A DNA stretch of 64,000 nucleotides from Roseobacter denitrificans OCh 114 (GTDB taxonomy: Bacteria; Pseudomonadota; Alphaproteobacteria; Rhodobacterales; Rhodobacteraceae), in contig NC_008209.1 of NCBI RefSeq assembly GCF_000014045.1, positions 3,867,001 through 3,931,000 of the forward strand, in the 5' to 3' direction. The position numbers and the translations under genes were made by a program. Position 1 is the first letter of the stretch. Each line of letters starts with the position of its first letter. The notes beneath the pieces are model-generated. The model saw only the letters and a list, made by a program, of their open reading frames with translations. It had not been told where the DNA came from and made no database searches. This document shows, piece after piece, positions 29,094 through 53,354 of the stretch.

Positions 29094-29451
29094 TCGCGGC
29101 CTTTTGCCTTGAGGACCGGGCGCCAGTCACATTTTGCTGTTTTTTCAAAACAGGTTCGCAGCCTGACTGAATTGCATCAGATGTGCTGTCATGCCGCTTC
29201 GCTTATTCGCCCACCAGCACGTGTCCGGAGAAACTCCCTTTTGAGCCGCACGTGACATCCCGGTCAGCGCGGGAAGGAAGCGGCAGCGCCTGTCCGCGAT
29301 GACGATCTTCCAGACGAAAAACCACCAAGTGAGTTAGGAAACCCCGAAGTGCGTTTTGGACAGATGTGTTCGGGGCCTATTTCCGAAGAGTCGAACCCGT
29401 ACCACCGCCGTTTTTTCGGCCCCAGAAGCGATCACTGGCCGTTATATGCCC

Positions 29452-29504
29452 GCAAAATGGTCGATTTAGCTCGAAAATGGCCGGGAATTGCTTGCCGCCA
29501 TAAT
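29452..29504 (+). repeat. Transposon-end-like repeat, copy 1
   Basis: A 53-bp sequence identical at 50 positions to 37970-38022. It starts GCAAAATGGTCGA and contains a second AAAATGGCCGGG 20 bp later, so it looks like two tandem TnsB-binding boxes. More AATGGCC or inverted GACCATT motifs follow at 29521-29534, 29592-29602 and 29614-29622. Position just outside the 3' end of tniQ fits an element end. Confidence 0.7.
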
Positions 29505-29711
29505 AATTGTGGACCCAAGCAATAAATGGCCATCATCAGCGCCTAAATCATTGAAATTTCGTAGTCCAAGCTGAGCATCGGCGGAAGACTTGACCATTTC
29601 GCAAGGTTAACTTGACCATTCACATCGTCAAAAAGCCAAAGGGCCAAATGCATAGGGCCCATTATGTTAAGTTTCGGGACCGCCCCGCTCAGGCCGTCAA
29701 GAACGCAAAAG

Positions 29712-29732
29712 GGCCGCCCGAAAAGGGCGGCC
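29712..29732 (-). terminator. Terminator after tniQ of module 1
   Basis: GGCCGCCC pairs with GGGCGGCC around five bases, followed on the minus strand by CTTTTGCG. It lies 27 bp past the tniQ stop and closes the tnsA-tnsB-tnsC-tniQ operon. Confidence 0.75.
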
Positions 29733-29758
29733 TCCTACATGAGATCTTGTTGCTTTGA

Positions 29759-31600
29759 TCAGCCGGGCTCAATCCCGCGAAGATCGCTGATGCGATAAAT
29801 GTCGGTCCCAAAATTCGCCCAGTCAAAAACAGGTTTGATACCCTTGGCCTTTAAGATGCGTCTCAACTCAAAACGCCGTATCTCAAGCCGTTCAAGGATC
29901 GGTGCCAAGCTGTTGTAGATCGACCCGAACCTTTCAACATCACGCAGCGGCACCCGCGCAAACTGATGGTCCGTTGAACTGGTGATCGTCTTCATTTTCA
30001 ACGGCGCACTGGGGTCTTTGCACAGCTTCAAAACAGCTTCGAGCGGCAAGCGCAGTTTGCCAGCAACTTCCAGCGGCTCGAGCCCAACAGTGTCAACTTT
30101 GAGCACCCATGTCTTGATCTGCGCAGGATCGAAACGTAGTGCGGCAATGCCGGCTTCGCCTTCGATCCGAACCGTGTCCGTCAAAGCCCCCGCGAGCAAA
30201 AGGTGCATAAAGCTGCCTGTCGGGGTTTTGGCCTTCTCGGCCGCTTTGATCAGCGGCACATGCCCCGCCGGCGTGGCGACAACCGTCGGGACAAGTTGCT
30301 CAATTTGGGCCAAGAGTTTCTTCACATCTGCCCGATCAACGGCTTTGGACGTGTGCCCTTTTGACTGCGCTGAACGTCCCGCGATCGGCTGGAGGATGCG
30401 GTCAGAGACCACTTGGTAGGCGACATTGCGCGTTGTGTTCAATGCGGTGGGCAGCTCTTTGAGGTAAATGACGCGCTGGATTTTCTCGGCAATGCGGCGC
30501 CCGGTTTCGGCGTCAACCGTCATGTGCTGTGCGTTTTTCGCATTGGGCAAAAGACCCGCAGTTACCAGCGCATTCTGGACCAATCGTGTGTCGAGGCCCG
30601 CCTTACTCGCCAAAGATGCCGCAGTGTGACGGCGACGCTCGGCAAGCGGCTCGCCCAGCACCTTTGTGCCTGCGGACAGTGCGAAGTTTTCGAAAATGAA
30701 CTCCCTCATGATGTCTGTGATCGGACCGCGATCCTTGACGGCGCGCTTTGCGGACAGCGACGTGTACAGCGGGCCGAAGATTTTCTGGGGGCCCGGACGC
30801 GCCGCCGTGTACTCAAACGACGCAAAGATCTGCTCGAGCGCTTGCTGCACAACCGCCTCCCCTTTGGAGGTGTAGGCATAACCGGCGCGCCCCGCCTCGT
30901 GCCAATCGTCCTCGTTGAGCGTGTCGAGAGAGACGCCCGTGCCAAACGCCACCACCGCGCCCAGCATTTCCGTTGCCCACTGAGCCTGTTCAATGCTCTG
31001 GCTGTCCAGCCAAGCCGGCCCGACGGCGCCATCTAAACGGTTAATAACGTAGTCCTGCAATTCAGAGACGGGGCGAGTGGTTTGCCCGTCGATCAATTGA
31101 GCGAGCGCTGCGCCTTGTTCTTTGACCCGCAGCCCCAATTGGACAAGCTCATCCTCATGGTGCTCCTTTGAAAGCCTCACGATAGGCAGCCCGTGCTGAG
31201 GACAGGTTTTCACGACGTCCAGCGCCCAGAACCACCGATGGCGCCGTGCAACTGCGGGATCTGGGTGACTGGCGTCATCATCGTGTAAGCAAAGCGGGCA
31301 GAAAGCCACCCGAGGGCGCACGAAGAACTCCGCAGACAACGCCTCGCCGCGTAGCCTATAGGCTCGTTTCCCCGTCCGAACTGCTGCATTCGCTGACACC
31401 TGGTCGAAGTCGGACCCAGTTGTCGTGCAAAGCTTATCAATCGCTTCTGGCTCTCCTGCGACCAAACTCATTGGCGCAATGCCAATATCGGGCAAAAAAG
31501 GGGTAACTGTCCCGCCTGTATGAAAAGCTGCCGCACGTGCCGTGCAGGAAAGTGCGCTCTCTTTTGGGCCAAAGGACAGAATTGGACGAAGAACTTCCAT
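29759..31600 (-). CDS. tniQ: TniQ/TnsD-family target-site selector, module 1
   Basis: A 613-residue protein related to TnsD/TniQ, which chooses the insertion site for Tn7-like transposons. A zinc-binding segment FCPLCLHDDD..HRWFWALDVVKTCPQHGLP gives the CxxC...CxxH pattern near residues 95-140. The N-terminus SALSCTARAAAFHTGGTVTPFL resembles that of the second copy. Start at 31600 (MEVLRPILSFG) is set by GAGAGGA upstream. The large size is more like TnsD, which recognises a fixed attachment site, than short TniQ. It is the last gene of module 1 and is intact, unlike its tnsB and tnsC partners. Confidence 0.82.
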   Translation of the reverse strand: MEVLRPILSFGPKESALSCTARAAAFHTGGTVTPFLPDIGIAPMSLVAGEPEAIDKLCTTTGSDFDQVSANAAVRTGKRAYRLRGEALSAEFFVRPRVAFCPLCLHDDDASHPDPAVARRHRWFWALDVVKTCPQHGLPIVRLSKEHHEDELVQLGLRVKEQGAALAQLIDGQTTRPVSELQDYVINRLDGAVGPAWLDSQSIEQAQWATEMLGAVVAFGTGVSLDTLNEDDWHEAGRAGYAYTSKGEAVVQQALEQIFASFEYTAARPGPQKIFGPLYTSLSAKRAVKDRGPITDIMREFIFENFALSAGTKVLGEPLAERRRHTAASLASKAGLDTRLVQNALVTAGLLPNAKNAQHMTVDAETGRRIAEKIQRVIYLKELPTALNTTRNVAYQVVSDRILQPIAGRSAQSKGHTSKAVDRADVKKLLAQIEQLVPTVVATPAGHVPLIKAAEKAKTPTGSFMHLLLAGALTDTVRIEGEAGIAALRFDPAQIKTWVLKVDTVGLEPLEVAGKLRLPLEAVLKLCKDPSAPLKMKTITSSTDHQFARVPLRDVERFGSIYNSLAPILERLEIRRFELRRILKAKGIKPVFDWANFGTDIYRISDLRGIEPG

Positions 31601-31625
31601 TTTACTTTTCCTCTCTTCAACGCAG

Positions 31626-32576
31626 TTATCCAAATGCCAAGCGTTCCATGTCGACATGCGACCAACGGTTCGTCAGAAATACATTCTGGGACAGATCGCA
31701 CGCTGTCTGAGCCCCGAAAACCTCCACAAAGTGCTCGCTTGTCAGCGACGTGGCGCCCGTATCCAGCGCAACCTCAATGGCATCAATCACCGTCTCGATG
31801 ATCAGACCAAAACGGCCTCGGCAGGCGTGTAGCAATCGACCGACCAGATCATTTCGCGGTGGCACCTCCAGCCCAGCGCGCTGGTAGAAACGTTCGAGAA
31901 TTGTCCAGATCTGGTCGCCGTCAGGCGCTTCAGAAAGATCAGTCAGAAGCATTTTGCGCATCCGGCGAGTGATTTGGCGATCGGTATGGGTGATCTGTTC
32001 GAGCTCCTCTACACCACTGAGGACAACGACGACTGACGCATCTCCCTACATTAAGTTCTTGATAGTATTGAGAATATGCCTCGTCGTGGCCGGCCCTTTT
32101 GTGCGGAACAAGTCTTGAGCTTCGTCGATCCACAGCAAAACTGTCCCCTTCAGACGGAAGCGGTGCCGCACGATGCGCCAAATTTCATGTTCGCTGATGC
32201 TGCGCTGATTTTCGATGCGGTAACCCAGCTTGTCCAAAACCTCGATCCCCAACGATTTCATTGTGACATTGCTGGGAACCTCAACAGAGATCCAAGGCTG
32301 GATATCTGGGCTGACCGTTTGCAAAATGTCGAGATTGGACAACACATGCCGGATCAAAGTTGTCTTGCCGCTGCCTGTTTTGGCCACGACCATCAGCCCG
32401 CGCGTCTCACACGTTGCAGTAAAGTGCTTTGGCTGCGCGATAAGCTCTCCGTCCGGACCGCGCTGCAAAAGATCCTTGAGGGCAGTCTCAAAGGCAGCAT
32501 CACGACCTGATGGCACATAGAGGCGACGCAGATCGAACCACGGTGTTGCGGCGGTATGATCGACAAGATTTTCCAT
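31626..32576 (-). pseudogene. tnsC: TnsC/TniB-family AAA+ ATPase, module 1, interrupted by an in-frame amber stop
   Basis: The transposition regulator ATPase that links target selector to transposase. Walker A is VAKTGSGKTT near residue 65 and Walker B VLLWIDEAQDLF near 150. A TAG at 32046-32048 falls after IKNLM; the same frame then continues GDASVVVVLSGVEELEQI to the normal end at 31626. The intact second copy has a CAG glutamine at the matching place (LMQGDDAVAV). So one base change split a 316-codon gene into 176 and about 139 residues. Adjacent to tnsB without a gap. Suppression of the stop cannot be excluded. Confidence 0.85.
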
Positions 32577-34762
32577 TTATTTCTCCCCAAAGGTCCAATC
32601 ATCACTACTCGCCGAGCGGCGATGTGAAGGACGTGGGGTCGGTTCTGGTGTGACAGAAACATCATTTTTGTGACGTGATACGCTCTTGTCGTCCAAGAGA
32701 CTTACATCAGCCGGTTGTTCAAGTGCAGGTGCAGTTGGTAGATCGAGGCCAAAGCCGTCTGTTGATGGTTGTTCGTCTGCAGGGTCCTGATTCACCGAGA
32801 GTCCAATGGAAAGTTCCGCCTCAATCTGCTCGACCTTTTGCTTGGTCCATTTCTGAACCTGCAGCCCAGCACGCTCCATCGCGTCCTTGTTCACTCTTTC
32901 AATCTCGGCAAGAGCCTTGCGAACAACGTCAAAGTGGACGGTTTCTCGTTCCTTGTACTGCGTGCGCAGAGCTCTACGGGTCAGATCCCAGTGCAAGGCC
33001 GAAACACCGTTGAAAGCGCCTCCGACATTTGGAACCTCGTGCCACTCAATGCCAATCTGCACGAAGATCGAACCAAGGTCGGCGGGATGCCAGCGCAGCT
33101 TCACAACAGCCTTTTCGTCGCGCAGTAGCAGCGACGCCAACACATTGTTATGGTAGCGAATACCCATTACGGTGATGCCTGTGGGCTTAAGCCGCCGCTC
33201 TGTTTCTTGACCGAAAGCAAGAGCGCGGGTTTTCCGATCCGGCGCCGGACGAACACCGAACTGATTGACAAGTCGGTTCCAGACATCGATTGGTGCTTCG
33301 CCACCTAATCCTTGATGCGGTTTGCGATGGTAGATGTCGACAATCCATCGTGTCAGTACATCGCAGAACTCGTTTACACTGAGGGCGGCCTCTTTAGTGG
33401 GGTCTCTGTCGCCCCTGGTCACAACGTCATGGAAAGTTCGGCCGCTCAATCGCGGCAAGAGGTTTATCGAAACGGTGCGGAACAATCGTTCGATTACGCC
33501 CTTCATCTGCGGTTTGCCGGCAGGGCAATGTTCGATACGGCAACCGACACTGTCCATCGCAAAGTGCGAAGCAGCACTGATATTGTAATTTGCGCAATCG
33601 GTTATGATCAGTTCAGGCGTACCATACATATGCCAAGGCGAAAGGGCACCCACAGCATCTGAATACACCCCCTTATCTTGCATAATCATTTCGATGGTTT
33701 GCAAGGCGCTGTCCGTGCTACCAACTGGGGAAATACATAGCCCCACGATACATTTCGTTGCTGTGCAGATAGCGACTGTGATCAGCACCCGCAGAGATTT
33801 ACGGTCCAAACCAAGAGCAGCACGCTCTTCAGGCGTTATCGCACTGAAGAAGTCGCTCTCCTCTAAAAGAGTGATCAAATCAGCGGTCCACTCGTCCTTT
33901 TCTATTCTTTGAAGCGGTCTTGTCGCGCCGACACCGACAGAAACGGACGCGAATTTGCGACGAGCTGTCTCTAAGCCTTCGCGCGCCAGACAAACTTCGA
34001 AATCGTCAAGTTCGCCGATTGCAAGCCGGACCGCTTCTCTGCAGGGTGGATTCAGTTTAGACAAGCCAGACTTGATGCGATCTTCTTTTAACTCATCAAT
34101 TGCACAACGGACATTTTGATAGATTGTCTCCTTTGTCGGCCTATTGGGGTCCAGATAACCCTGGACGCACCGATTTAGGGCGGCCAAGACCTCTGCTGCA
34201 AGGCGGCGTCGAGTATTGCCCCTGCGGTGAGATGCGCCGCAAAGGCCGGAAATGCCAAACCGATCATAGGCTTCTTTCCAGCGAAAAAGAGACTTTGAAC
34301 TGAACTCGGGACAAACGAGCGTCTTATCTCCTTGCTCTTGTAAAATCTTACCCGCCGCCACTTGAATTTTTCTTTGTTCTCGTCGATCGAAGGGTGGGTT
34401 TTCTTAACCTGCTTTGCTTCGAATGCCGCGTTGAAGGCCAGGACTACGGCGCGACATTCTTCCACCCTCTTGCGCTTCTTCGGCGGCAATGAAGCCAGAA
34501 ACTCAACCGCCGCCTCCCCTGTCACTGGGACGTGAGGCTGCGGCGAAGCTGCTGGCTGATGTGTCAGCAAATTTTGCCGCTCGAAATGCGCCAACTGGGT
34601 GTCTGAAAATTCTTGCGCCATACCCCGCCGATCTTTCGGCAGAACCACAACGCGGTCCCCCCGGCCCTCGAGGACAGTCCAATCGAACCCTTCGATGGTC
34701 AGGGTGTCGTTGGGCTGCAAAGCGAAGCGTTGCACGAAATCACTTGGCGAGATGTGAAGCAT
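32577..34762 (-). pseudogene. tnsB: TnsB/TniA-family DDE transposase, module 1, frameshifted
   Basis: A Mu/Tn7-type integrase of about 728 residues when joined. The first 130 residues read in the frame starting at 34762 (MLHISPSDFVQRFALQPND); near 34365 the coding frame shifts by one at an A-run (GAAAAATT), after which the catalytic part is open to 32577. The DDE residues are visible as EKDEWTADLI, LIITDCANYN and GVIERLFRT. A missing A in the run would restore one frame. No standard slippery heptamer is present, so a simple deletion, or a homopolymer sequencing error, is likelier than programmed shifting. Start overlaps the tnsA stop as TAATG. Confidence 0.85.
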
Positions 34763-35439
34763 TAGGCTTTGCCCCGCACGACAAGAGCATCATGGGTAAT
34801 TTTCTCGCGCTTGACCAATCGCAGTTCGCCCGACCTCAAAAGGCGAACGACGGCCCAAAACCCCTGTCCGGAATGACCTATCTCTTCAATAAGAGCGCCA
34901 ATTCGAACGGTGGTTTTCAATTCTTGGATGGTTTTGCGAGCTACTGAGTCAACTTCAGGCTCAGCCAGTCGAGCAGCATAAAGAAGTTCAGCATTGTGCG
35001 AAGTAATCGGATCGTTGTCTTTTTCGGTCATGACAACAACCCGATCCGCAAAGTCAGGGGTGACTTGGGCTGCAATCGTGGCGAATTCGGCCATCAGCCG
35101 ACGGCTCTCCAAACGAAAGGCTGCTTTCACGAAAATTGCGATTCTGGTTCCATCTGTCCGCAAGACCCGAAAATCGAAGTGGTGGATATGCGGCTTTCCG
35201 GTGGCGTCACGCCAGCGGAAAGGAACCTGATTCTCCACATGGATCACATCCGGTCGCGTCATTAGGTTCAGCGCGATTGCCATTTCCGTGTGACTTTCGA
35301 CATCCGACAAACACGGGTTTTCATCAGAGCCAAGAGTGAGCTGACCAGTGAAGTGCTTCTGCGTTCCTTTGGCCACCTTGCGGGAATACTGGGCTTTCGG
35401 GGGCAACAAATACCCACCCGACGGTGTTTGCATGATCAT
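34762..35439 (-). CDS. tnsA: TnsA-like transposon endonuclease, module 1
   Basis: A 225-residue protein with the TnsA layout: N-terminal PD-(D/E)XK-like nuclease domain and C-terminal helical domain. Candidate catalytic residues are the Glu of VESHTEMAIAL, the Asp of HFDFRVLRTDG and the Lys of IAIFVKAAF; the Gln/Glu two residues before the Lys is Phe here. TnsA cuts the non-transferred strands so that Tn7-like elements move by cut and paste. Start at 35439 (MIMQTPSGG) follows a GGAGG ten bases upstream. First gene of the module operon. Confidence 0.78.
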   Translation of the reverse strand: MIMQTPSGGYLLPPKAQYSRKVAKGTQKHFTGQLTLGSDENPCLSDVESHTEMAIALNLMTRPDVIHVENQVPFRWRDATGKPHIHHFDFRVLRTDGTRIAIFVKAAFRLESRRLMAEFATIAAQVTPDFADRVVVMTEKDNDPITSHNAELLYAARLAEPEVDSVARKTIQELKTTVRIGALIEEIGHSGQGFWAVVRLLRSGELRLVKREKITHDALVVRGKA

Positions 35440-35840
35440 TTCCAAACTACCTCCATCGCAACCGCCTCGAATGATTGCGCAACGAAAACAGGCACAGGAA
35501 AACACGCGTTTGTTGGTGTTCGGACAAATGACACTGCGGCTCTCCCAAGCATGATCTTCGTTGCTCGTGAAGAAAGTTGGCTCGTTTGCATTTTGACGAA
35601 AAAGAAAAACAAAATTTTTTTTATGCTATTGTTAAAAAATACTTTTTCCGAGTTGTGGCGATAGATTTCAGCAACTCAGGGATCTTGCGCCTTGCAGCGG
35701 CGCGAACAAGTTGCGAGGCGGCTCAGCAACGCCAGGTCAGAGCGGAGTGAAATTTCCAACAGCAACTGGGTTTTGTTTGTCGTTGAACCTACCTCATCCT
35801 CCGCTCCGAACGGCGTAACCGTCAGCGTCGGGACGCGCAG
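35440..35840. other. Intergenic region upstream of tnsA of module 1
   Basis: This 401-bp gap contains a strongly AT-rich stretch at about 35590-35650 that should hold the divergent promoters of the tns operon and the small cargo genes. A single inverted CATTTTGAC near 35588 resembles the AAAATG boxes at the left end, too weak to call a right end. No gene is credible here. Confidence 0.4.
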
Positions 35841-36158
35841 ATGGCGAAGCTGCCGTCGGACCGGACGGAGCTTGCTGAAAAGACTGTGGCCGGTGCGTTG
35901 CACCCGTTGAGCGCCTACCGGATCGGGCGCGGGAAAAGTGTGTCCGCGCTTGCACGTACGGCAGCACTTTCCCCCGATACGATCCGGTCCATCGAGTTGT
36001 CGGAAATGCCGGAAACAAGCGATGCAATCAAAGCTGTCACCGCGGTCGTCGCGGCAGAGATCGCTTCAGACACGAATGGATCCTCTGGAACCGGCTTCGT
36101 CGCGGGCGACGGCTTTTCTAACGGTGGCGGTGTCGATGCCGGCGGCGGCGCAATGTGA
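35841..36158 (+). CDS. Small helix-turn-helix protein
   Basis: A 105-residue protein whose middle (LSAYRIGRGKSVSALARTAALSPDTIRSIELSE, positions about 23-55) has the spacing of an XRE/Cro-type helix-turn-helix, followed by a glycine-rich tail. No good ribosome site precedes the ATG at 35841, so the start may be elsewhere. It is the first plus-strand cargo gene after module 1 and could be a regulator of the neighbouring small genes. Confidence 0.5.
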   Translation: MAKLPSDRTELAEKTVAGALHPLSAYRIGRGKSVSALARTAALSPDTIRSIELSEMPETSDAIKAVTAVVAAEIASDTNGSSGTGFVAGDGFSNGGGVDAGGGAM

Positions 36159-36284
36159 CGGCATTTGCCACAGATCAGCTTTGCGCGGCGGCCCAGGCTG
36201 CCGCGCCCCCTCAAGAAAAGCGCCTCTTCAAAATCGGCAAAGCCGAAGGTCGGTTGCTGGCGCTCCGGAATTTGGATGGATGAC

Positions 36285-36616
36285 ATGAACGACAAAGAAA
36301 AGAGGCCCGAAATTTTGGGCATGATCGAAACGGTTTTGCGCGCGGAGAACCCAGATTTGCCAAATCTTTGGTTTTTTGGGCAGGCGCGGAAGACCGGATG
36401 GCATTTATCGAAGTGTACGGATGCGATGAAAATCTCCACCGTCGCCGTTCGATCCGTACGCGAGCAAGTGACATACTGGCGCTGCTGGGCATTACGGTAG
36501 AGTTGGAGTCGGGATGTGATGCTTTCGAGATTTCGCCGATCCGGCCAAGAAGCGCCCATGAAGTCTTAAAGACCATCGACGCGTACAACCGACTAGTCTC
36601 GGATCGGTCCGAGTAA
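36285..36616 (+). pseudogene. Unknown small gene split by a frameshift
   Basis: Two frames join into one plausible protein of about 110 residues: MNDKEKRPEILGMIETVLRA from 36285 to a T-run near 36370 (LWFF), then AGAEDRMAFIEVYGCDEN onward in the next frame to 36616. Losing one T from the homopolymer would explain the break. No family recognised. As with tnsB of module 1, an assembly error at the homopolymer is possible. Confidence 0.5.
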
Positions 36617-36861
36617 TCCCTGTCGGCATCGCAAAGCGGCGAGGCGGTTCTGCCGCCTTCCGCGTCCTCGTTGTTTGGCGCGCGCAGTTCGACGAAGGCC
36701 ACAGCGGAATCTACGAAAAAAATTCAATTTTTTTCTTCGCCCAAATCAAAACGAGCCAACATTCCCATCAGAAAGGAGGACACTACCCGCACTGATCGTC
36801 AGCCCAACAGCCCTTTGACTCCCGTCCCGATGGACAAAACCTGCAAGAAAAGGAGCTGACT

Positions 36862-37254
36862 ATGTACTTGCAAACCTCCCTCGATCCCCGAACCGCAACC
36901 CCAGCTGAGGAAGCTGACCTTCGCGATCGCATGCGAAATCAGGCTTCGGCGTTCCTGCATTCCTGCGAGCTGCTCGCGGGCAAGCCGGGCGCAAAGCTGG
37001 TGCAGGATGTGTTGGATGGGTTGATGCGGACACCGAAACTGACCTGGCGCCTTTAGGCCCAACTGGTGCAACTGCTGGAGATTTTGTCGCTGGAGCACGT
37101 CCATGACACAAGCCGTCCAGATGCCAGCTATTTCGCCGCGATCGATCCGGCCGATCCCACCGTTGAAGAGATTTGTCTGGTCACCGATCGCTTGCGGTGC
37201 GCGCTGCAAAGGGCGGGGGTGAGCCTGCCCAGCGATTGCTTCGCATATGCCTGA
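36862..37254 (+). pseudogene. Unknown small gene with an in-frame amber stop
   Basis: An excellent ribosome site (AAGGAG, six bases before the ATG) starts a frame of 64 residues ending TPKLTWRL, then TAG at 37054-37056. The same frame continues immediately as AQLVQLLEILSLEHVHD to a TGA at 37252-37254, for 130 residues in all if the stop were sense. A GC-rich terminator follows. A CAG-to-TAG change is the simplest explanation. Family not recognised; mostly helical. Confidence 0.6.
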
Positions 37255-37262
37255 CGCTTTCT

Positions 37263-37283
37263 GACCGCCCGCCGCGGGCGGTC
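37263..37283 (+). terminator. Terminator after the amber-interrupted gene
   Basis: GACCGCCC pairs perfectly with GGGCGGTC around five bases, followed by GCTTTAAG. It lies nine bases after the TGA at 37252-37254, which supports the view that the frame up to that point was once one gene. Confidence 0.65.
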
Positions 37284-37342
37284 GCTTTAAGCCGAATTTG
37301 AAACACTGCCGTCGCGGTCCGGCGTATGAAGGAGATGTTGAA

Positions 37343-37714
37343 ATGTATGACACCAAACCTGACGCACGAGAGCACTTGGGGGATGCCATCTTTGATCTGG
37401 GCCAGTTTTTGCAGCGGCACGAGCGGGGCCTTTTCGAGTTGATCGGCCCGGACGACGAGACGACGTTTGAAGCGTGCTGCGATCTTCACAACGAAGCCAA
37501 ACGCGTGGTTGCCCCCGATCCGCAGAAAATCAATCGGCTTCTCAGCACGGTTGTCGCGGCCCTGGCTGCGCAGCGCCCGTCTTTTCTGGAAGAGAGATCG
37601 CGACAGCACAAACGGTGCATGTTGGCCGAAAACGCTTGGTATGGCGCGCGGCTGACGGATCGGCTGCACCTTATCCAACTCCGCCACGCCGCGGCGGGTC
37701 GAATAGCCGCGTAG
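37343..37714 (+). CDS. Unknown 123-residue cargo protein
   Basis: A mainly helical, charged protein beginning MYDTKPDAREHLGDAIFDLG, without signal peptide or membrane segment. I chose the ATG at 37343 because GGAG lies nine bases upstream; the frame is open from 37298. A terminator-like hairpin with TTTTTT follows at 37737-37768. No family recognised. Its neighbours between the two transposition modules are all small unknown genes. Confidence 0.6.
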   Translation: MYDTKPDAREHLGDAIFDLGQFLQRHERGLFELIGPDDETTFEACCDLHNEAKRVVAPDPQKINRLLSTVVAALAAQRPSFLEERSRQHKRCMLAENAWYGARLTDRLHLIQLRHAAAGRIAA

Positions 37715-37736
37715 CACCCTTCGAACTCCAGCCCAC

Positions 37737-37768
37737 TGGCCCGGCGTTTCCCGACGCCAGGCTTTTTT
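37737..37768 (+). terminator. Terminator after the 123-residue cargo gene
   Basis: CTGGC/GCCAG and GGCGT/ACGCC pairings are both possible in this stem, followed by a run of six T. It lies 22 bp past the stop codon. Confidence 0.65.
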
Positions 37769-37969
37769 GCGCGGGTTTGTCTTGGCCGATCCCGCAACAA
37801 AGCGCTCTCGCCTCGGATGCCAAAGTAAACGCAAACGGCTCTGAACAAGAAAAATCGCCTCTCGGTTTTGCGAGCGCTTGCTTTGGACCTATCTCAGGAG
37901 AGTCGAACCATTGAACCTGTTCAATCGCAGGCAATTCGCCGAGTTTTTGGCGAAGGCCTTTTTATGACT

Positions 37970-38022
37970 GCAAAATGGTCGAATTAGCTCAAAAATGGCC
38001 GGGAATTGCTTTCCGCCATAAT
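37970..38022 (+). repeat. Transposon-end-like repeat, copy 2
   Basis: Matches 29452-29504 at 50 of 53 positions and in the same orientation, again just outside the 3' end of a tniQ gene. Contains GCAAAATGGTCGA and AAAAATGGCCGGG boxes 20 bp apart; further CAAAATGACC (38101-38110) and CAAATGGCC motifs lie inside. It probably marks the left end of module 2. Confidence 0.7.
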
Positions 38023-38143
38023 GTAGAGACATAGCAAAACGTGTCCATTACACGATCTGCAGGTCCTTATTTTATTGGTTCATTTCGGCCCGTCGGCGGC
38101 CAAAATGACCTTTTGCACAGATCAAATGGCCATCGAAAGTTCA

Positions 38144-38166
38144 AAAAAGTGCCGCCCGAAGGCGGC
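38144..38166 (-). terminator. Terminator after tniQ of module 2
   Basis: GCCGCC pairs with GGCGGC around a four-base TTCG loop, followed on the minus strand by ACTTTTTTG. It lies about 40 bp beyond the tniQ stop, as in module 1. Confidence 0.75.
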
Positions 38167-38207
38167 AATTTGGCAAATCGTTGGGCCTTCAAGCCGCTTA
38201 AGCCCCT

Positions 38208-39758
38208 TCACCCCATCCAGAACCGAATCTCGTCAGACGCATCGGGCGGCGGATCTGCGATGCATGCCATGATCTCATCCGGTGAAACCAAGACCGCTTG
38301 GAACCCGTGGCAACCCTTAAGCCGGTAGACTGTTGGAAGAAACTGGCGAAACAGCATTTCGAGAATGGCCCGTAATGTGACCCGGGTTTTCTCCGCAGCT
38401 TTGGCAAGGTGGACGTGAGTTTCGGGAGGCTCCTCCAGAAGCGGGCCGACACCTTCGATGAACTTGAGCGTGCGTTGAACCGACCGTCCGTCGATCGACT
38501 TCCCCAGCTTGCTTTGCAGCTGACCGTGGTCCTGTATTCTTGTCAGCTGTCCTAGTGAAATCAGCTCAGCCACGATTGGACGTGATGCAGAGAGCATATC
38601 CGGGACCTGCGTCACCGGTACCGCGCGCTTTGCCCTGTCGATCAAGACCTTCGCCTTGGCATAGTCGGCAACCACATTCCGAGCGCTCTTTTGCTCCTCT
38701 CCATCCTCAATCACCCCGGCGACACGTAGGACATTGGCCAGTGTCTTCGAATGCAATCCTTCAGCCTTCGCGATCGACGTGATGCTAGACAACCGCGGAT
38801 GTTCCACTGCTTTGCCGAGCAGCATCTGGCCCGGGACCAGAGGAACATGTTCGATAATGACGTCTCGAACGAGGTCGCGAATTGGCCCTGGATCTTTGGT
38901 CAATCGGCTGGCGAACAGCCACCCGTAGAGCATGCCAAATGCGCTGCGCGGGCTCGGATGACCATTTTGACGGAGACAGCATGTGAGGGTCTCCGCCAGA
39001 ACTGTCCTGATTGCATCAGGACCCTCCTCCAGCAATGACCAACCTTTGCGGCTCGCAGCATCCCACATGTCTTCCGTCATGTCGGCTGCTTTTTTGCCGG
39101 GTCCGTAATACAGAAGGCCGCCTAGCATTTCACCGGTACGGCAGACTTGATCAATGCCCTGATCGTCCAGCCAGGCGGGGCCTGCCTCACCCGCCAACCG
39201 GCGTTCCACATATGTCTGCAAGCGAGACGGCTCTCTCCGGGAACGTGTCTTCGCAACCTCCAGCTGCTCCGCGATTGCTTCCGGCATGGCTTGAAGCTCG
39301 TGAAGCATGTCGCTCCACGTTCCCATGCGGATGTCGCTCATTGGCAGATTGTGTTTCGGACAGGTCCGATATGGCGCAAGCCGCCACTGAACCCGATGGC
39401 GCATTGCCTCATCAGGATGTTCACAGCTGCCGATGTCCTCAGCAATGCAGAGCGGGCAAAGCCGAGTGACCGGCCCCGTGGTGAACTCTGCTGAGAATTC
39501 CTCGCCACAAAGTTTGAAGCGACGATGTTCGACAGGGACGATGCTGTTGCGGATCACCTCTGCAGGATCTTCGCCAGCCTTCACACAGAGCCTCTCAACT
39601 GCGTCACGCTTGCCACGAGCTAGATCGGCAATCGGGATCCCCAGGTCGTTCAGGAACGGGACGACGCGGCCTCCCGTATGGAAGGCCGCCTGCCGCGATG
39701 CCCATGACATCGGCGTTTCGCCGGTATGGAACGCGATTTTCGGAAACAGCGCATTCAT
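38208..39758 (-). CDS. tniQ: TniQ/TnsD-family target-site selector, module 2
   Basis: A 516-residue target selector. The N-terminus WASRQAAFHTGGRVVPFLNDLGIP parallels module 1. The zinc-binding segment LCPLCIAEDIGSCEHPDEAMRHR..YRTCPKHNLP has the CxxC...CxxH pattern. The ATG at 39758 overlaps the tnsC stop (TGATGA); a GTG one codon earlier is the alternative. It is about 100 residues shorter than the module 1 copy and clearly diverged, so the two may recognise different sites. Confidence 0.82.
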   Translation of the reverse strand: MNALFPKIAFHTGETPMSWASRQAAFHTGGRVVPFLNDLGIPIADLARGKRDAVERLCVKAGEDPAEVIRNSIVPVEHRRFKLCGEEFSAEFTTGPVTRLCPLCIAEDIGSCEHPDEAMRHRVQWRLAPYRTCPKHNLPMSDIRMGTWSDMLHELQAMPEAIAEQLEVAKTRSRREPSRLQTYVERRLAGEAGPAWLDDQGIDQVCRTGEMLGGLLYYGPGKKAADMTEDMWDAASRKGWSLLEEGPDAIRTVLAETLTCCLRQNGHPSPRSAFGMLYGWLFASRLTKDPGPIRDLVRDVIIEHVPLVPGQMLLGKAVEHPRLSSITSIAKAEGLHSKTLANVLRVAGVIEDGEEQKSARNVVADYAKAKVLIDRAKRAVPVTQVPDMLSASRPIVAELISLGQLTRIQDHGQLQSKLGKSIDGRSVQRTLKFIEGVGPLLEEPPETHVHLAKAAEKTRVTLRAILEMLFRQFLPTVYRLKGCHGFQAVLVSPDEIMACIADPPPDASDEIRFWMG

Positions 39759-40726
39759 CACGTGCGCACCTTGCCGGAACAGCGTTTTGAAGAGGCGGCG
39801 TGGTCCTCATCCGCATCAGGTTTGAGAAGCAGGTAGTTTTCCGCATAGAAGACATTCTGCGATGCAAGACATGCCTCGTTCATCGCATAGGCAGAGGCAA
39901 AGTCGTCGATCGCCAGATGCTGCGCATTGCGGGCAAGCGCGAACTCCATAGCAACCAGCAAGAGCTCGACAGCGCGGCCAAAGCGATACCGTGCGCCATG
40001 GAAAACGCGCGCAACAAGGTCGGCTTCCACCGGTGGCTCAAGGTCGACCCGCGCACAGTAGTCCGACATCACCGTGCAGAACATGTCTCCATGAGCCGCC
40101 TCGGTGAGCTCCGGCAATACCATCGCAGTGAATCGACGTTTCACCTGGGGGTCGGTCCGAATAACCTGTGCAAGATCGTCGGTGCCAGACAGGATAACGG
40201 CGACAGCATCATCGCCCTGCATCAGCGACTTGAGGGCCCGCAGGATGGCCTTGCGATCGGCACAGAACAAATCCTGCGCCTCATCAATCCAAAGCACGGC
40301 GACCCCCAACTTGCTCAGTCGATGGCGAAAGAGTTGCCAGAGAGACCAAGCCTCCTGCCGCGGGTTTGCATCGGAATATCCGGAACGCTCCAGCAACGCG
40401 AGGGTCATGCTTTTGAAGGTTGCAGGACTGGGAACGGGACAGGCGATGACCCGCGGCACCCCATCACCGGCCGGAGCCAGTTCGGGAATCTTGGTCAGCG
40501 TCCGGTCCATCAGGTGCGACTTCCCGCTGCCGGGATCCCCGACGAGCATCATCCCACGGGTCTCCCCTGTCTTGGTGAAGTAGCGGGCCTTGGGGATGAG
40601 ATTGCCCTCCCGATCCCGCGCGAGGAGCCGCTTGACATGCAAGGCAGCCTCAGCATCCCAATCCAGCCCGATATGCAGTTTGCGGACCGCGTCCAGAGCG
40701 GCTTCCTTGTTGACGAAATCCTTCAT
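39758..40726 (-). CDS. tnsC: TnsC/TniB-family AAA+ ATPase, module 2
   Basis: A 322-residue intact ATPase. Walker A GDPGSGKSHL is near residue 63 and Walker B VAVLWIDEAQDLF near 146; the region LMQGDDAVAVILSGTDDLAQV contains the sensor and matches the place where module 1 has its amber stop. It would polymerise on DNA and bridge TniQ to TnsA/TnsB. It starts two bases after the tnsB stop and overlaps tniQ. Confidence 0.88.
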   Translation of the reverse strand: MKDFVNKEAALDAVRKLHIGLDWDAEAALHVKRLLARDREGNLIPKARYFTKTGETRGMMLVGDPGSGKSHLMDRTLTKIPELAPAGDGVPRVIACPVPSPATFKSMTLALLERSGYSDANPRQEAWSLWQLFRHRLSKLGVAVLWIDEAQDLFCADRKAILRALKSLMQGDDAVAVILSGTDDLAQVIRTDPQVKRRFTAMVLPELTEAAHGDMFCTVMSDYCARVDLEPPVEADLVARVFHGARYRFGRAVELLLVAMEFALARNAQHLAIDDFASAYAMNEACLASQNVFYAENYLLLKPDADEDHAASSKRCSGKVRT

Positions 40727-40728
40727 GA

Positions 40729-42936
40729 TCAGTCCTCCTCGATCGTGATATTGGTTGGCTTCGCAGGCAGATCCGAGGGTGCGGTCGCATCGCCAGACGG
40801 CTTTTTCGGCGCGTTGTGATGCATGGGAACACCGGTCAATTCTTCCGTCGACGGAATATGATGGCCCAGTTCACCCTTCTGCTGAGCAGGCGCCTTGCGC
40901 TCGAAGAATTCGACCCCGGCCAACAGGTCCCGCTCGGCGCGCTCCATGCGCTCCTCCGACCAGTCTTCAAGGTTCAGGCTGGACGCCTGCTTCGCTTGCT
41001 CGTTGCGATCATTGATGGCTTTGATGGCTTTGCGCACCGCTACATTGTCCAAGCGGTTCGAGGTCGGGTTGGCCGAACGGGTGTGCCGAATGGCCGTCAG
41101 CCAGGTTTGTGCAGCTACCCCCTTCAGGGAAGTGTCCAGGGCCGGAACCTCGAACCATTCCTTACCCAACCGGACGGAAATCGCGCCCATATCCTTGGGG
41201 TGCCACCGCACATCAACAATGTGCGGATCCTTGCGGCGCATGTAGGTTTGCAGGTGTTCAGCCTGGTAACGCACCCCGAGGATCGTGATCCCGGTCTTGT
41301 CGAGGCGATACTGGCGCTGCTGCCCGAAGCACAGGCGCATCATCTCCATGTCCGGCGGAGGAAGAACCCCGTACTCCTTGCTCAGGCGACGCCATGCCTT
41401 GACGGGTGTCTCGCCATTCAGCCCACCGTGAGGCGTATTGTGGTAGATGTCCGTCACCCAACGGATCAGGGCAAAGGTGAAGTCATCCAAGGTCAGGACG
41501 GCCCGCTTCTCCGGATCGGCATCACCTTTCTTGATGATGCTGCTGAAAGTGTGACCGGTCAGTCGTGGTGCAAAATCGCTTGCGAAAGTACCAAACACCC
41601 GCTCGATGGTTCCGCGGTTCTCAGGCACACCGTTCATTGCCATTTCCCATGCGACGCCAAGATCGCTGGCCGCCATGCGGAACCGTTGCGATTTAAAGGC
41701 TGCGCCGCCGTCAAAAACGATCAGCTCAGGGGTGCCATGCATGTCCCAAGGCGTCATGCCTCCCACAGCATCTGACCACGCGCCTTTGTTGGTCGTGATC
41801 ATCTGCAGAAGCTGAACAGCCGCTTCCTCTCCAGGATTGCGGCTCAACACCATCCCAACGATGCAGCGCGTGGCACAACAGATTGCGGCGGTCAGTGTCC
41901 AGCGACCACATTTTTTACGCTTCGTCTTGCCCGACCCATCTTCATCACCTTCGACATAGAGACCCAGCGAACGCTTCGCGTCATCCTCTAAGAGGTCATA
42001 AATCCCGCTGCTCTGCATCAGCGTCATGACGTCGACCGTCCACTCGTCAATCTCGACGCGCTCCAAGGGCCGCGTCACTGAGACACCGTTCAGAACCGGC
42101 CGGAACTTCTTGCGTGCGGCGGCTTCCCCGTTGCGGGCCAATTCAACCTGATAGGGGTCCAGCGCACGGATGGCGCGGCGCACGGTTTCCCGGCTCGGGA
42201 TCGTGAGCGGCGATTGTCCATTTGCGACGCGCTGCTCGTTGCGATCGTGGAAGCTGATTTGCACCTGCTCATGGATATGCTTGATCGACGGCTTTTCAGG
42301 GGAGAGATACGTGCGCACCTCTTTCATCATCAGACCAATCGCTTCCGGGCCCATCCGGTTCGATCGGTTGCCACGACAATCGATCCGGTCGACAAGACCG
42401 CTCCGGCCGAAGTTATCCATGGCACTCAGCCAACGACGTAGGGTGCGCGGCGACGGACGAACGCTGAAGTCTTCACCTTTTGGCAGCTTTTCCTTCCCAG
42501 ACGGGTTGAGATTATCAGAAAGCTCCATGGCACGACCCATCAATGCCGGCATGTTCGCCTTGATGGACTCGTCCGTGAATTTCAAAAGACCCTCGCCGTG
42601 CATGTCGAGAGCAGCCTGACAATACGCTTCCTTCTTGCTTGACCGAACCTTGACGCCACCGACGAGACCACCGTGGGCTGTGCTCATCTGCAATTGACGC
42701 TTTGCCGCGAAGTTTGGATCGAAATATCCACACTCGACCCGGATTGCGTGCGTATTCCCAAGCCACTGCAACTTCTGATGAGTGAAATGCTCAGCAAGTT
42801 GCGTTTCGTCATCGCGGACGAACACAAGGCCAACTTCAGTTTCCTGATGGAGCCGATATCCGACCCCTTCAATGGTGACGCGGTCAAATTTGCCAAAGGC
42901 GTAATGGGAGTTTTCGTTGGTGAACGAGAGATCCAT
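40729..42936 (-). CDS. tnsB: TnsB/TniA-family DDE transposase, module 2
   Basis: A 735-residue intact transposase. N-terminal DNA-binding helices (PSPRTLRRWLSAMDNFG) precede the RNase H-like core with VEIDEWTVDVMTL (first Asp), ELIVFDGGAAFKSQRF (second Asp) and NRGTIERVFGTF (Glu), then a Mu-type C-terminal barrel and a tail that in Tn7 contacts TnsC. It catalyses strand transfer at the element ends. Length matches the reconstructed module 1 copy (about 728). Confidence 0.9.
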   Translation of the reverse strand: MDLSFTNENSHYAFGKFDRVTIEGVGYRLHQETEVGLVFVRDDETQLAEHFTHQKLQWLGNTHAIRVECGYFDPNFAAKRQLQMSTAHGGLVGGVKVRSSKKEAYCQAALDMHGEGLLKFTDESIKANMPALMGRAMELSDNLNPSGKEKLPKGEDFSVRPSPRTLRRWLSAMDNFGRSGLVDRIDCRGNRSNRMGPEAIGLMMKEVRTYLSPEKPSIKHIHEQVQISFHDRNEQRVANGQSPLTIPSRETVRRAIRALDPYQVELARNGEAAARKKFRPVLNGVSVTRPLERVEIDEWTVDVMTLMQSSGIYDLLEDDAKRSLGLYVEGDEDGSGKTKRKKCGRWTLTAAICCATRCIVGMVLSRNPGEEAAVQLLQMITTNKGAWSDAVGGMTPWDMHGTPELIVFDGGAAFKSQRFRMAASDLGVAWEMAMNGVPENRGTIERVFGTFASDFAPRLTGHTFSSIIKKGDADPEKRAVLTLDDFTFALIRWVTDIYHNTPHGGLNGETPVKAWRRLSKEYGVLPPPDMEMMRLCFGQQRQYRLDKTGITILGVRYQAEHLQTYMRRKDPHIVDVRWHPKDMGAISVRLGKEWFEVPALDTSLKGVAAQTWLTAIRHTRSANPTSNRLDNVAVRKAIKAINDRNEQAKQASSLNLEDWSEERMERAERDLLAGVEFFERKAPAQQKGELGHHIPSTEELTGVPMHHNAPKKPSGDATAPSDLPAKPTNITIEED

Positions 42937-43029
42937 GGGAATTTCCTTTCAAGGGATCAGGCGGCATGAGGCCGCTGGACAGCCTGCCTAGGTCGGCAGG
43001 CGATTGAACTGAGTGAGAGACTGGAGAGG

Positions 43030-43191
43030 TCAGAGCGTTGTCGGCAGAGTCTCTGTCAGGTCGTTGAACCATGCGTCGAACTCGATGCGCTCCAGCGGGT
43101 GGCGTGCGCGGAAAAATCCAACAGCAAAATCAGGAGTCTGGTCGCCAATCGGCTCAATGGCGCAGGGCGCATCATACAAAATGCAGGTCAT
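43030..43191 (-). CDS. Small 53-residue gene between tnsB and tnsA of module 2
   Basis: Starts MTCILYDAPCAIEPIGDQ, ends NDLTETLPTTL, with AAGGA seven bases before the ATG. Acidic and without cysteine-rich or membrane features. It lies in the 380-bp gap that separates tnsA from tnsB in module 2; module 1 has no such gap. Could be a small transposition accessory protein or an unrelated cargo gene. Not recognised. Confidence 0.45.
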   Translation of the reverse strand: MTCILYDAPCAIEPIGDQTPDFAVGFFRARHPLERIEFDAWFNDLTETLPTTL

Positions 43192-43317
43192 TCAGTGTCC
43201 TTTCATCAGGCATAGAGAGGTCCAACCCAGGCGAAGGTCGCCTCGGCAGATTCAAAACACGGGGGGAGACCGGCCGCGCTGGATGGTTCACAGCGGGCCG
43301 ATCTCGGGAGAGGATGA

Positions 43318-43995
43318 TCAGCTCATGCGAGCCCGCAGTACTTCGGTACTGCGTTCCATGCGCTCGTGGCGCAACATCTGAAGGTGGCCGGAACGGATCA
43401 GGCGTACGACGGCCCGAAAACCCATCCCTTCGAGGCGGGTTCGATCCACCAGATCACCGATGGTAGTGACGATGGGCGCATCGGCCAAAACATCCAGAGC
43501 AACCGGATCGGCAAAGGCATCAGGGCGACGTACTGAGTGGAACAGTTTCGCATTGTGCAGCGCGACCGGGCAGACGTCCTCTTCAGTGAACAAGCGGAAA
43601 TCGTCCAGGAAACACTGGGCAATGGCCTGCTCTTTGATCCGTGCGAGCTTGCACTGGTAAGCTTGGCTGACCCGGCTCGCCGGACGAACGGCGTAACCGC
43701 AGATAGTGCCATCGATCCGTGTGACTACGAGGTCGATGAAATGGTCGAAGAACTCGCCGTGCTCATCATACCATGCGAATTGAACCTGTTCGACGAGGTC
43801 CAAGGTTGTCGCGCGGTAGCCCAACAACAGGGCAGCGTTGGTCTCGAGATGGCTTTCAGTGCCAAGGCGCACGCCTTCCTGATCACCCAGGACGAGGCCG
43901 CCGGTAAAGTGCTTGGTCGAGCCAACCTGGGTCTTGCGGTTGCTACGGCTGGATGCGGGAAGGCGGATACCGCCAGATTGGAAGTGATAGGACAT
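43318..43995 (-). CDS. tnsA: TnsA-like transposon endonuclease, module 2, altered active site
   Basis: A 225-residue TnsA-like protein starting MSYHFQSGGIRLP. The candidate catalytic Glu (GTESHLETNAALL) and Asp (HFIDLVVTRIDG) are in place, but the stretch that should carry Gln/Glu-x-Lys reads GYAVRPASR, so Ala replaces Gln and Arg replaces the Lys. By comparison with Tn7 TnsA (Q130, K132) this probably weakens or abolishes cleavage. The longer frame from 44124 is less likely because conserved sequence begins at 43995. It is separated from tnsB by 381 bp. Confidence 0.75.
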   Translation of the reverse strand: MSYHFQSGGIRLPASSRSNRKTQVGSTKHFTGGLVLGDQEGVRLGTESHLETNAALLLGYRATTLDLVEQVQFAWYDEHGEFFDHFIDLVVTRIDGTICGYAVRPASRVSQAYQCKLARIKEQAIAQCFLDDFRLFTEEDVCPVALHNAKLFHSVRRPDAFADPVALDVLADAPIVTTIGDLVDRTRLEGMGFRAVVRLIRSGHLQMLRHERMERSTEVLRARMS

Positions 43996-45463
43996 GATCG
44001 TCTCATTCTTTCGAACATAAGGAGGGGATCGCTGCCCGAGAGTTCGGAAAGCGGTTGACCCCAGAAGCCGTCCAACCGATTTCGCCAAGGCGCTGAGCCC
44101 CCGTCGTGAAACTGCTGAAGACAAGCCTCTCCTGTCCCCATCCGGAGATGGGTTGGGCGGGATCTGTCATGTGTGAAAAGACCGATGTCCTTGAAGCGAT
44201 CGCCTAAAGGTGATAACTTCACGTTGAAAGCAGGAAGACCTCGGTCTTTCGAGATAAGTCGCGGTCTGTTGGCGCAGATCGCGATTTTCATTTTTAGGGT
44301 TCAGGCATCTTCGTTCCTTTACTTGTTTTTTCTCGGCGTTCGGCTGTCGGTACGCTACCAACAAACTCACCTCGGGAAAACTTTTTTCCTTTTTAATTCA
44401 GCGTCTTACGAAACGGGAAGAGACTAGTTTTTCGCATATGCGCAGCCAGTTGAAGTTGTGGTCGCCTACAGCGGCTCTGCGAAACCCGGTATTGGCCCTG
44501 TCGTTACGCGCCTCCGAAAGAAACGCGAAAAACAAACCGACTCTTTTAGTCGGAAATTATTCTTCATCGCGTTCTCAGCAAATGAACAAGGAATCTGACC
44601 GGCTACACATGGAGATTCGCAGAGTGGCGATAAGAATCCGGCGAGGTCAAAGTTACCGAATCCAAAAGGCACATATCCGGGTAAAAACACTGTCTTCGCT
44701 TGCTCATGCTTCCTGCGGAACCGGCGCAAGGGTTTGCACCGTGGCGGCCTGGGTCAGGCTATCCGTATGAGACGGCAAGAGTTATGAAGCGTTGGCTGTG
44801 TCATGGGGCAAGAGATGAACAATACGCTCATCGAAAACAAGGAATGCATAAGCGCTTCGATCCCGCGACACGATAAGTTGTGGCGAGGTCGCAACAAAAT
44901 CTGACTGCGTGAAGAATGGATATTGTTGAGGATTGCATCGATGGTCTATCCGCTCCCTATCAGATGCCAGACGCTCTACCGATTGCTGATAGGGAATTCC
45001 TAAGTGACCGGGCATCGAACCCTAGATCTCACGTTTTCGCCGGAAATTTTATTTCGCAGTGGCTCTTGAACGGTGACCGACTACTCACCAATGACTGCCT
45101 TGTCTTCCGCACATGATGAGATCATGAACCTTTGCGCAGTGTCGCAAATCGACACAAGACCCTGAAAGTATCCGCGCAAGGATCGCGCATTCATCCTGAA
45201 CTTTGCTTGTCCAAATCCCCTGAACCAAAGCAAAGGGGAGGCCCAGGGTCAGCAGGGTCTAAAGTTCTTCTATAGCTGGTTAGCGGGTGTTTCCTGGTCG
45301 CGAACTTACCCCAAGACACGGGACAAGTATGCGTGGGGCCAATGAAGAAGACCTCGCAACCGTCATCATGGTTCAGAATATCCACATATTTTCGGTGCTA
45401 TCCCGCAGCCTTTCTTTGCAGGATGGAAGAAAGCACACTAGTCTGCGGCAAAGGATACGAGAA
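43996..45463. other. Long gene-free region between module 2 and the restriction operon
   Basis: About 1.47 kb with no credible gene; frames are short, broken and without ribosome sites. It contains the promoter region of module 2, a perfect 10-bp inverted repeat (44954-44963 with 44986-44995) around a GGTAGAGC D-arm-like sequence, and a T-arm-like GGGTTCGATGCCC (complement, near 45012-45026). Relics of tRNA-like sequence and decayed DNA are the most that can be said. Confidence 0.5.
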
Positions 45464-45628
45464 ATGCCTGAGAAGCAATCGAAACCGGCCAACCTGAACC
45501 TAAAGATCACCGAGGACGAACGGTGGGACTTCAAAGAGTTCTGCGTCAGCCATCGGATGAGCCAGGTGGATGGCTTCCGCCTCGCATTCAAGCTGATGAA
45601 AGAGCATTTCGAGGCAGAAGGCAAATAA
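45464..45628 (+). CDS. Small ORF heading the restriction-modification operon
   Basis: A 54-residue protein starting MPEKQSKPANLNLKITEDER, preceded by AAAGGA. The pattern LNLKITEDERWDFKEFCVSHRMSQVDGFRLAFKLM, a strand then two helices, fits a ribbon-helix-helix DNA-binding protein. It ends 29 bp before hsdM on the same strand, so it is probably cotranscribed and may regulate the restriction genes. Confidence in function is moderate; the gene itself looks real. Confidence 0.65.
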   Translation: MPEKQSKPANLNLKITEDERWDFKEFCVSHRMSQVDGFRLAFKLMKEHFEAEGK

Positions 45629-45657
45629 GCCCCTCACGGGCCAAAAGGACCAAGACA

Positions 45658-47691: not shown

Positions 47692-48932
47692 GTGAGGACG
47701 CCGCTGTATCACAATGGAAAGAGTACCCTTTCTGGGCTGTCGCCAAGCCAAAATCGGTTTCCAACGCTTCGGCGGAAAGCTTGCTCTCGGTATATTTGGA
47801 CCGGGGGGTCATACCCTATTCCGAGGGCGGAGGGCTTGTCCACAAACCGGCGGAAAGCCTAGAAAAATACCAGTTGGTAGAACCCGGCGATTTGGTCTTG
47901 AACAACCAACAGGCTTGGAGAGGTTCATTAGGGGTCTCCACGTACCGTGGCATTGTGAGCCCCGCATATCGCATATTTGAATTAAATGGAGAGGTAGTGG
48001 ACACTCGCTTTTCTCACTATCTTTTCAGATCCCGACCTTACGTTGAAAAAATCATGCTCGCTTCGTTGAGCGTTGGAGATATCCAAAGACAAGTGAAATG
48101 GCCGCTTCTGAGGGTTTTGTTACTACGTGTGCCGAATATCTCTACACAATCAAAAATCGCGGAGTATCTCGACTGCGAGACCGCGCGGATTGATGGGTTG
48201 ATTGAGAAAAAGACCCGCTTCATCGCGCTTCTCAAGGAAAAACGCATCGCCGTCATCACGCACGCTGTCACCAAGGGCATTGATGCGGCGGTGGTAATGA
48301 AACCTTCTGGGGAAGACTGGCTAAGCGACATTCCCGCACATTGGACAGTGGTGCCACCGACGGCGCTTTTCACCGAAAGCAAGGAGCGCGCCCGAGAAGG
48401 GACCCAGATGCTCTCGGCGACCCAGAAATACGGGGTGATACCCTTGGCCGAGTTTGAACGGCTTGAACAACGGCAGGTCACCATGGCCCTCGTTCATCTG
48501 GATAAGCGCAAACATGTGGAAGTGGGTGATTTCGTGATTTCCATGCGCAGCATGGATGGCGGGCTTGAGCGGGCGCGCGCAGTTGGCAATGTGCGGTCGT
48601 CCTATTCTGTTTTGAAGTGCGGTCCGCATGTGGAAGGGCGCTTCTACGGCTACCTACTGAAATCGGGCCTCTACATTCAGGCCCTGCGCCTGACGTCTAG
48701 TTTCATCAGGGATGGGCAGGACATGAATTTCAGTCATTTCCGTAAGGTGAAGCTGCCCAAACTGCCTGTGGCCGAACAAGCGGCCATCGCGGATCACATC
48801 GACACCCAAACCGCCCGTATCGACAGCCTCATCACCAAAACCGACCGCTCCATCGCCCTCCTGCGCGAAAAGCGGGCGGCGCTGATCACCGCGGCCGTCA
48901 CCGGCAAAATCGACATGAGGCATATGGCATGA
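47688..48932 (+). CDS. hsdS: Type I restriction-modification specificity subunit
   Basis: A 414-residue HsdS with two target-recognition domains, each followed by a conserved helical spacer: ETARIDGLIEKKTRFIALLKEKR near residue 165-190 and QTARIDSLITKTDRSIALLREKR near the C-terminus. The spacers are near-repeats of each other, as expected. The first target domain is lower in GC than the second, suggesting recombination that changed specificity. GTG start overlaps hsdM; the stop overlaps the hsdR ATG. Confidence 0.93.
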   Translation: MSEDAAVSQWKEYPFWAVAKPKSVSNASAESLLSVYLDRGVIPYSEGGGLVHKPAESLEKYQLVEPGDLVLNNQQAWRGSLGVSTYRGIVSPAYRIFELNGEVVDTRFSHYLFRSRPYVEKIMLASLSVGDIQRQVKWPLLRVLLLRVPNISTQSKIAEYLDCETARIDGLIEKKTRFIALLKEKRIAVITHAVTKGIDAAVVMKPSGEDWLSDIPAHWTVVPPTALFTESKERAREGTQMLSATQKYGVIPLAEFERLEQRQVTMALVHLDKRKHVEVGDFVISMRSMDGGLERARAVGNVRSSYSVLKCGPHVEGRFYGYLLKSGLYIQALRLTSSFIRDGQDMNFSHFRKVKLPKLPVAEQAAIADHIDTQTARIDSLITKTDRSIALLREKRAALITAAVTGKIDMRHMA

Positions 48933-53343: not shown

Positions 53344-53354
53344 GTCAATCCAAG

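Follow-up and report, generated by a model that had tools for sequence, protein, structure and literature searches.

Transposon Tn7 produces a 5-bp target-site duplication and inserts behind its target gene, as do the elements El1 and El2 described here, and the Tn7 right end by itself confers immunity. Tn7-like genomic islands formed by repeated insertion at one site are said to have been described by Parks and Peters in 2007 and 2009. According to the sections of PMC11406308 that were consulted, the site recognized by TnsD persists after insertion, and target immunity is a strong barrier to a second one; for two types associated with clustered regularly interspaced short palindromic repeats (CRISPR), a comparison with Tn7 on target immunity is given as not examined (section 2.8). 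Here we analyzed a stretch of 64,000 nucleotides of Roseobacter denitrificans OCh 114 (NC_008209.1, positions 3,867,001 to 3,931,000; hereafter the window), in which two Tn7-like modules are located behind nrdJ, the gene for a class II ribonucleotide reductase.

This region very probably comprises three stacked Tn7-like transposons, inserted successively approximately 20-24 bp behind the nrdJ stop codon, in the order nrdJ, El2, El1, El0 (Table 1). The sequence shows that El1 and El2 each possess both ends, tnsB, tnsC and tniQ genes with a putative tnsA, and a 5-bp duplication, and that a right end of the El1 type, assigned to El0, abuts the left end of El1. In the proposed mechanism TniQ would read the 3′ end of nrdJ and guide each element to an almost constant distance from it, the right end facing the gene. 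Since the nrdJ site stays intact, later elements would land between this gene and the previous element, and the order of arrival would be El0, then El1, then El2.

An earlier note on this DNA, made from the sequence alone, had pointed to a 53-bp segment present beside both modules in the same orientation, and self-comparison of the window bore this out: 29452-29504 and 37970-38022 are identical at 50 of 53 positions. The extended repeat (29437-29504 and 37955-38022; 61/68, E = 1.2e-18) is the top match of the self-comparison, and further left a stretch of 25 bp (29373-29397 and 37885-37909) shows 84% identity. Each copy had been placed about 190-260 bp outside a tniQ stop codon, and the measured distances from the stops at 29759 and 38208 are 255 and 186 bp, respectively. 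At E ≤ 0.001, these are the only two places where a genome-wide search detected the repeat. Read leftwards, it displays spaced CCATT-type sites and the same build as sequences behind nrdJ elsewhere, and it contains TnsB-like sites at 20-bp spacing. Within the window GTTCGACTC is confined to the two copies. Beyond the TnsB-like sites, 107-125 bp inside the end, TTCGACTCT occurs in 9 of the 16 listed clade-1-type right ends (window 29373-29397 and 37885-37909, L133, L144, L166, L167, L170, L173 and L094); it is weak in two and absent from five.

The boundaries of El2 were revealed by an inverted pair (38028-38049 with 57031-57052) in the self-comparison: TGTAGAGACATAGC starts at 38022, its counterpart terminates at 57057, and the duplication CATAA lies directly outside each. 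El2 is thus delimited as an element of 19,036 bp (38022-57057) with its own ends and 5-bp duplication, which stops 24 bp from the nrdJ stop codon. The earlier note had advised looking for inverted copies to the right, at 50-60 kb; an inverted pair does reach that far, but it represents the ends of El2 and not of the repeat, which lies outside El2 because the boundary of the latter is at 38022.

The remaining ends were located with profiles built from other genomes. The first clade-1 right-end profile (nhmmer) consisted of 6 of 14 aligned right ends, chosen by eye, with both window ends, L112, L119, L127, L133, L144 and the L097 neighbour left out. Its best match in the window was 29498-29436 (minus strand, E 3.1e-6) and its second best 38011-37951 (minus strand, E 9.9e-5); the third, at the El1 left end, had E 0.14, no other match fell below E 0.1, and the El2 ends were absent among the matches up to E 10. 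Three further profiles each found their best window match at another boundary: the clade-1 left-end profile (8 of the 13 loci L087-L099, chosen by eye) at 29507-29645 (E 2.8e-13), the clade-2 left-end profile (all six of L100-L103, L105 and L106) at 38022-38150 (E 2.9e-18), and the clade-2 right-end profile (3 loci selected by eye) at 57057-56950 (E 1.7e-20). These envelopes fix the three boundaries concerned to approximately one base. AAGCAATnnnnGGCCAT is common to the right and left ends of El1. By the profile matches, El1 (29508-38020) has the second repeat copy as its right end, and the older El0 has the first. The segments are therefore ends of Tn7-like transposons, neither a chromosomal target nor an unrelated repeat, although each is the right end of the element to its left and not, as the earlier note assumed, an end of the module whose tniQ it adjoins. 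The likeness of the two copies probably reflects a type of right end common to El0 and El1, with identity declining further inside because the remainder of the two elements has diverged. Each copy lies near a tniQ gene because, in a stack, the left end of each newcomer meets the right end of its predecessor.

It had also been proposed that a single end type serves both modules, or that El2 could mobilise DNA bounded by the repeat. The position of each copy just outside a tniQ-proximal boundary is compatible with this, and a relationship between the two end types is evident from the match of the clade-2 left-end profile to the left end of El1 (E 1.5e-6). Nevertheless, El2 has its own end pair (at 38022 and 57057) and its own duplication, and the repeat copies match the clade-2 right-end profile only at E 0.29 and 4.8, which makes this proposal very improbable. 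With both copies being clade-1 right ends and the second module possessing its own, there is no mismatch between transposase and ends that would require cross-mobilisation or gene conversion.

The target-site duplications add to the stacked arrangement. That of El1, ATAAT, is found at 29503-29507 and 57062-57066, and the CATAA of El2 overlaps the right junction of El1. El2 is the putative later arrival, inserted at the right boundary of El1, whose right terminus would have been 20 bp behind the nrdJ stop prior to the arrival of El2. El0 ends in the same CCATA followed by ATAAT, which indicates that El1 inserted at a previously used position.

Because the repeat lies directly outside the El2 duplication, it might instead be normal chromosomal DNA flanking the nrdJ site that a rearrangement has copied. 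This reading is largely contradicted by the match of the repeat to right ends from other genomes, and is scarcely credible: the repeat carries TnsB-like sites at regular spacing, and a DNA search of 18 genomes of the same genus (up to 10 candidates scored per genome) gave no match. In the family, at least 2 of 394 genomes gave a match, a lower bound given that two candidates were scored per genome. The plasmid collection searched yielded no match, and in the genome-contig collection an exact 20-mer core of the repeat was present at a single locus, in Paracoccus, 31 bp behind the nrdJ stop. An 85% match in genome G407 (L038), from the family search, was taken as chance, since nothing transposon-like appeared in the 451 bases read.

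The paired transposition proteins had been described as diverged, with similarity at the level of motifs. The divergence was confirmed (32.5% identity for TniQ, 36-37% for TnsC in two pieces, 37% for TnsB and 35% for TnsA), but the pairs are alignable; the N-terminal tnsB piece of El1 gave no match at E 1e-3. The TniQ, TniB and Mu-transpos_C families of El2 score above the Pfam cut-off, and its TnsB matches the solved TnsB of Tn6677 (E 2.2e-32). Neither TnsA has a Pfam match, the NCBIfam TnsA-like matches are below cut-off (E 0.004 for El1; 8.8e-5 for El2), and El2 TnsA has no relative among solved structures at E 1; the tnsA genes were tentatively assigned by position and their mutual identity. 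In El1, tnsB is split into two frames (34762-34175 and 34361-32577), while TnsB of relatives such as L088 aligns unbroken to that of El2, and translation of tnsC meets an in-frame TAG. These lesions give El1 the appearance of an inactivated member. El1 also contains, in the stretch from tnsA to its right end, an imperfect, AT-rich inverted repeat (35572-35621/36716-36764; 80% over 50 bp).

Other genomes point to nrdJ as the attachment site. Among genomes encoding close TniQ relatives, TniQ is located downstream of nrdJ, on the same strand and at 14-40 kb, in all 12 with both genes on one contig, and in the five genomes measured the nrdJ stop is followed by the terminus after 14-22 bp. In many genomes of the genus and family, nrdJ is followed by sequences with spaced CCATT-type sites resembling Tn7 ends. 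With the motif and thresholds set after inspection, at least three such sites occur in the first 140 bases of 9 of 53 loci (17 from the genus and 36 from the family) vs 1.9% of 11,378 background windows, and at least two in 21 of 53 vs 10.5%; L143-L146 (selected for known TniQ), L091 and L102 were not counted. In G012, of the same genus, secE, nusG (both named by eye) and the rpoB-rpoC cluster follow within approximately 3 kb behind nrdJ, with a tniQ-like open reading frame (ORF) between. Homology between the window and G012 is interrupted at positions 17334 and 57079, and nrdJ and secE are separated by about 3 kb there vs 39.7 kb here; these breaks indicate that 39.7 kb were inserted. The segment 17335-29436 (12 kb, from secE to the El0 right end), which is perhaps El0 cargo, contains an operon for an ABC transporter together with genes for a factor of the sigma-70 family and a zf-HC2 zinc-finger protein; at the DNA level the operon is matched at 74% in a single genome of the genus, G017, on a contig other than the one with nrdJ. 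NrdJ itself carries an apparently inserted HTH_3 domain (residues 581-632), and aligns in one piece in 5 of 19 genomes of the genus, in the rest in two pieces or partially.

Several observations weigh against a stack of nrdJ-directed elements. In the remaining genomes of the 27 with a close TniQ, the two genes fall on separate contigs (13) or nrdJ has no match (G334 and G136); G024, omitted from this comparison despite its TniQ rank, also has the two matches on separate contigs. G357 harbours a second TniQ more than 1.2 Mb from nrdJ, and more distant TniQ genes on nrdJ contigs are far away (G148, G025) or oppositely oriented (G139, G081, G084). The ancestral gene order rests on G012, the only one of 17 same-genus loci with rpoC in the stretch fetched behind nrdJ, some of these stretches being ended by contig ends. 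ATAAT lies within repetitive ATAATAAT, so that the El1 duplication is weaker evidence and its terminus is uncertain by 1-3 bp. The El1 right terminus is TAT rather than TGT; TAT termini, chosen by eye, are also found in G386, G273, G274 and G390. No convincing left end emerged for El0, with the left-end profiles or otherwise, and El0 may therefore consist of a right end alone. Finally, target immunity predicts that El1 should not have landed beside El0.

Stacks are also present in G386, G113, G264, G136 and G390. A right end directly outside a left end was found by profile at 4 of the 20 TniQ loci L087-L106 (L094, L097, L099 and L105). The neighbours of L094 and L099 were originally spotted by eye; a second right-end profile includes them and the window ends, and its matches there are by construction. 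The outer right end of L105 fits the clade-2 right-end profile better (E 1.8e-10), and L093 has, by eye, a third type of right end outside its left end. In G390 a right end lies approximately 240 bp beyond the second TniQ (L173), where no left-end profile matched.

When the inner right end, the one nearer nrdJ, was compared with the outer one along the first 68 bp, like pairs (87-90% identical) were found in three of five stacks, namely the window (59/68), G264 (64/71) and G386 (59/68, the two ends being on two contigs), and unlike pairs in two, G113 (40/75) and G390 (45/76, innermost vs outermost, with another TniQ gene between); G136 was outside the comparison. Such likeness could reflect gene conversion or recent tandem duplication. 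In the window, however, identity falls to 78 of 106 aligned columns over the first 100 bp, with one short block further in, which is a pattern of constraint and not a copied tract, and long contiguous identity inside El0 and El1 is absent, leaving this origin very improbable. Under successive insertion, the El1/El0 pair and those of G264 and G386 indicate that target immunity may be weak; sequence comparison suggests that it is weak, lost, or not acting across such divergence. The older element may, however, have become defective before the second insertion. More tentatively, nrdJ-directed elements might lack immunity or quickly escape it, the lineage repeatedly inserting beside its own right end, so that nrdJ would serve this family as an expanding landing site for cargo islands.

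Table 1. Features of the transposon stack behind nrdJ (window positions).
Feature	Position	Strand	Basis
Inner conserved block of El0 right end, GGTTCGACTCT..., ~107 bp from terminus	29373..29397	-	self-comparison
El0 right end (repeat copy 1), terminus 29502, points left	29437..29502	-	right-end profile match
ATAAT, El1 target-site duplication, left copy	29503..29507	.	
El1 left end, TGTGGACCC...	29508..29645	+	clade-1 left-end profile
El1 tniQ, 632-aa ORF	29759..31657	-	Pfam TniQ E 4.7e-19
El1 tnsC, interrupted by in-frame TAG	31626..32576	-	Pfam TniB/AAA_22 on 32046-32576 piece; translation
El1 tnsB, split over two reading frames	32577..34762	-	Pfam Mu-transpos_C on 32577-34361 piece; ORFs
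El1 tnsA	34762..35505	-	weak NCBIfam TnsA-like E 0.004, below cut-off; 35% identity to El2 TnsA
El1 right end (repeat copy 2), terminus 38020, points left	37955..38020	-	right-end profile match
CATAA, El2 target-site duplication, left copy, overlaps El1 terminus	38017..38021	.	
El2 left end, TGTAGAGACATAGC...	38022..38150	+	clade-2 left-end profile
El2 tniQ, tnsC, tnsB, tnsA	38208..44124	-	Pfam for tniQ, tnsC, tnsB; TnsA-like E 8.8e-5, below cut-off
El2 cargo: hsdM, hsdS and hsdR of a type I restriction-modification system	45523..52132	+	hsdS by PADLOC only
El2 right end	56950..57057	-	clade-2 right-end profile
CATAA, El2 duplication, right copy	57058-57062	.	
ATAAT, El1 duplication, right copy	57062-57066	.	
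nrdJ, class II ribonucleotide reductase; 3′ end the putative attachment site	57082..59580	-	Pfam Ribonuc_red_lgC E 4.3e-129

Relatives of the El2 restriction-modification genes hsdM (42%) and hsdR (38%) are present in the clade-2 element of L102.

The apparent mismatch between transposases and ends is thus resolved as a stack, and stacks with near-identical neighbouring right ends offer natural test cases for the strictness of immunity in Tn7-like elements besides Tn7. In the literature searched, which covered Tn7 islands only in part, no paper was recognized that names nrdJ, or ribonucleotide reductase, as a target of Tn7-like elements; a term search for "nrd" in the available text of PMC10293859 and PMC8649781 gave no hit. 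In the portion of the literature considered, nrdJ is a candidate attachment site not met before.

Elements targeted by TniQ/TnsD, such as Tn7 at attTn7 (glmS), resemble those of the window in their tnsABC-tniQ genes, several TnsB-type sites per end and a right end directed towards the recognized gene, as far as the consulted sections of PMC11406308 describe them. Unlike in Tn7, the putative attachment site is nrdJ, tniQ adjoins the left end, and related elements are stacked. CRISPR-associated transposons share a homologous TnsB (Tn6677); no cas families were found among the Pfam matches of the subset of window ORFs tested. Tn7-like genomic islands are reportedly alike in repeated insertion at one site, and here the right ends of some stacked neighbours are 87-90% identical. 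The kind of element is known, but related bacteria make repeated use of the nrdJ spot.

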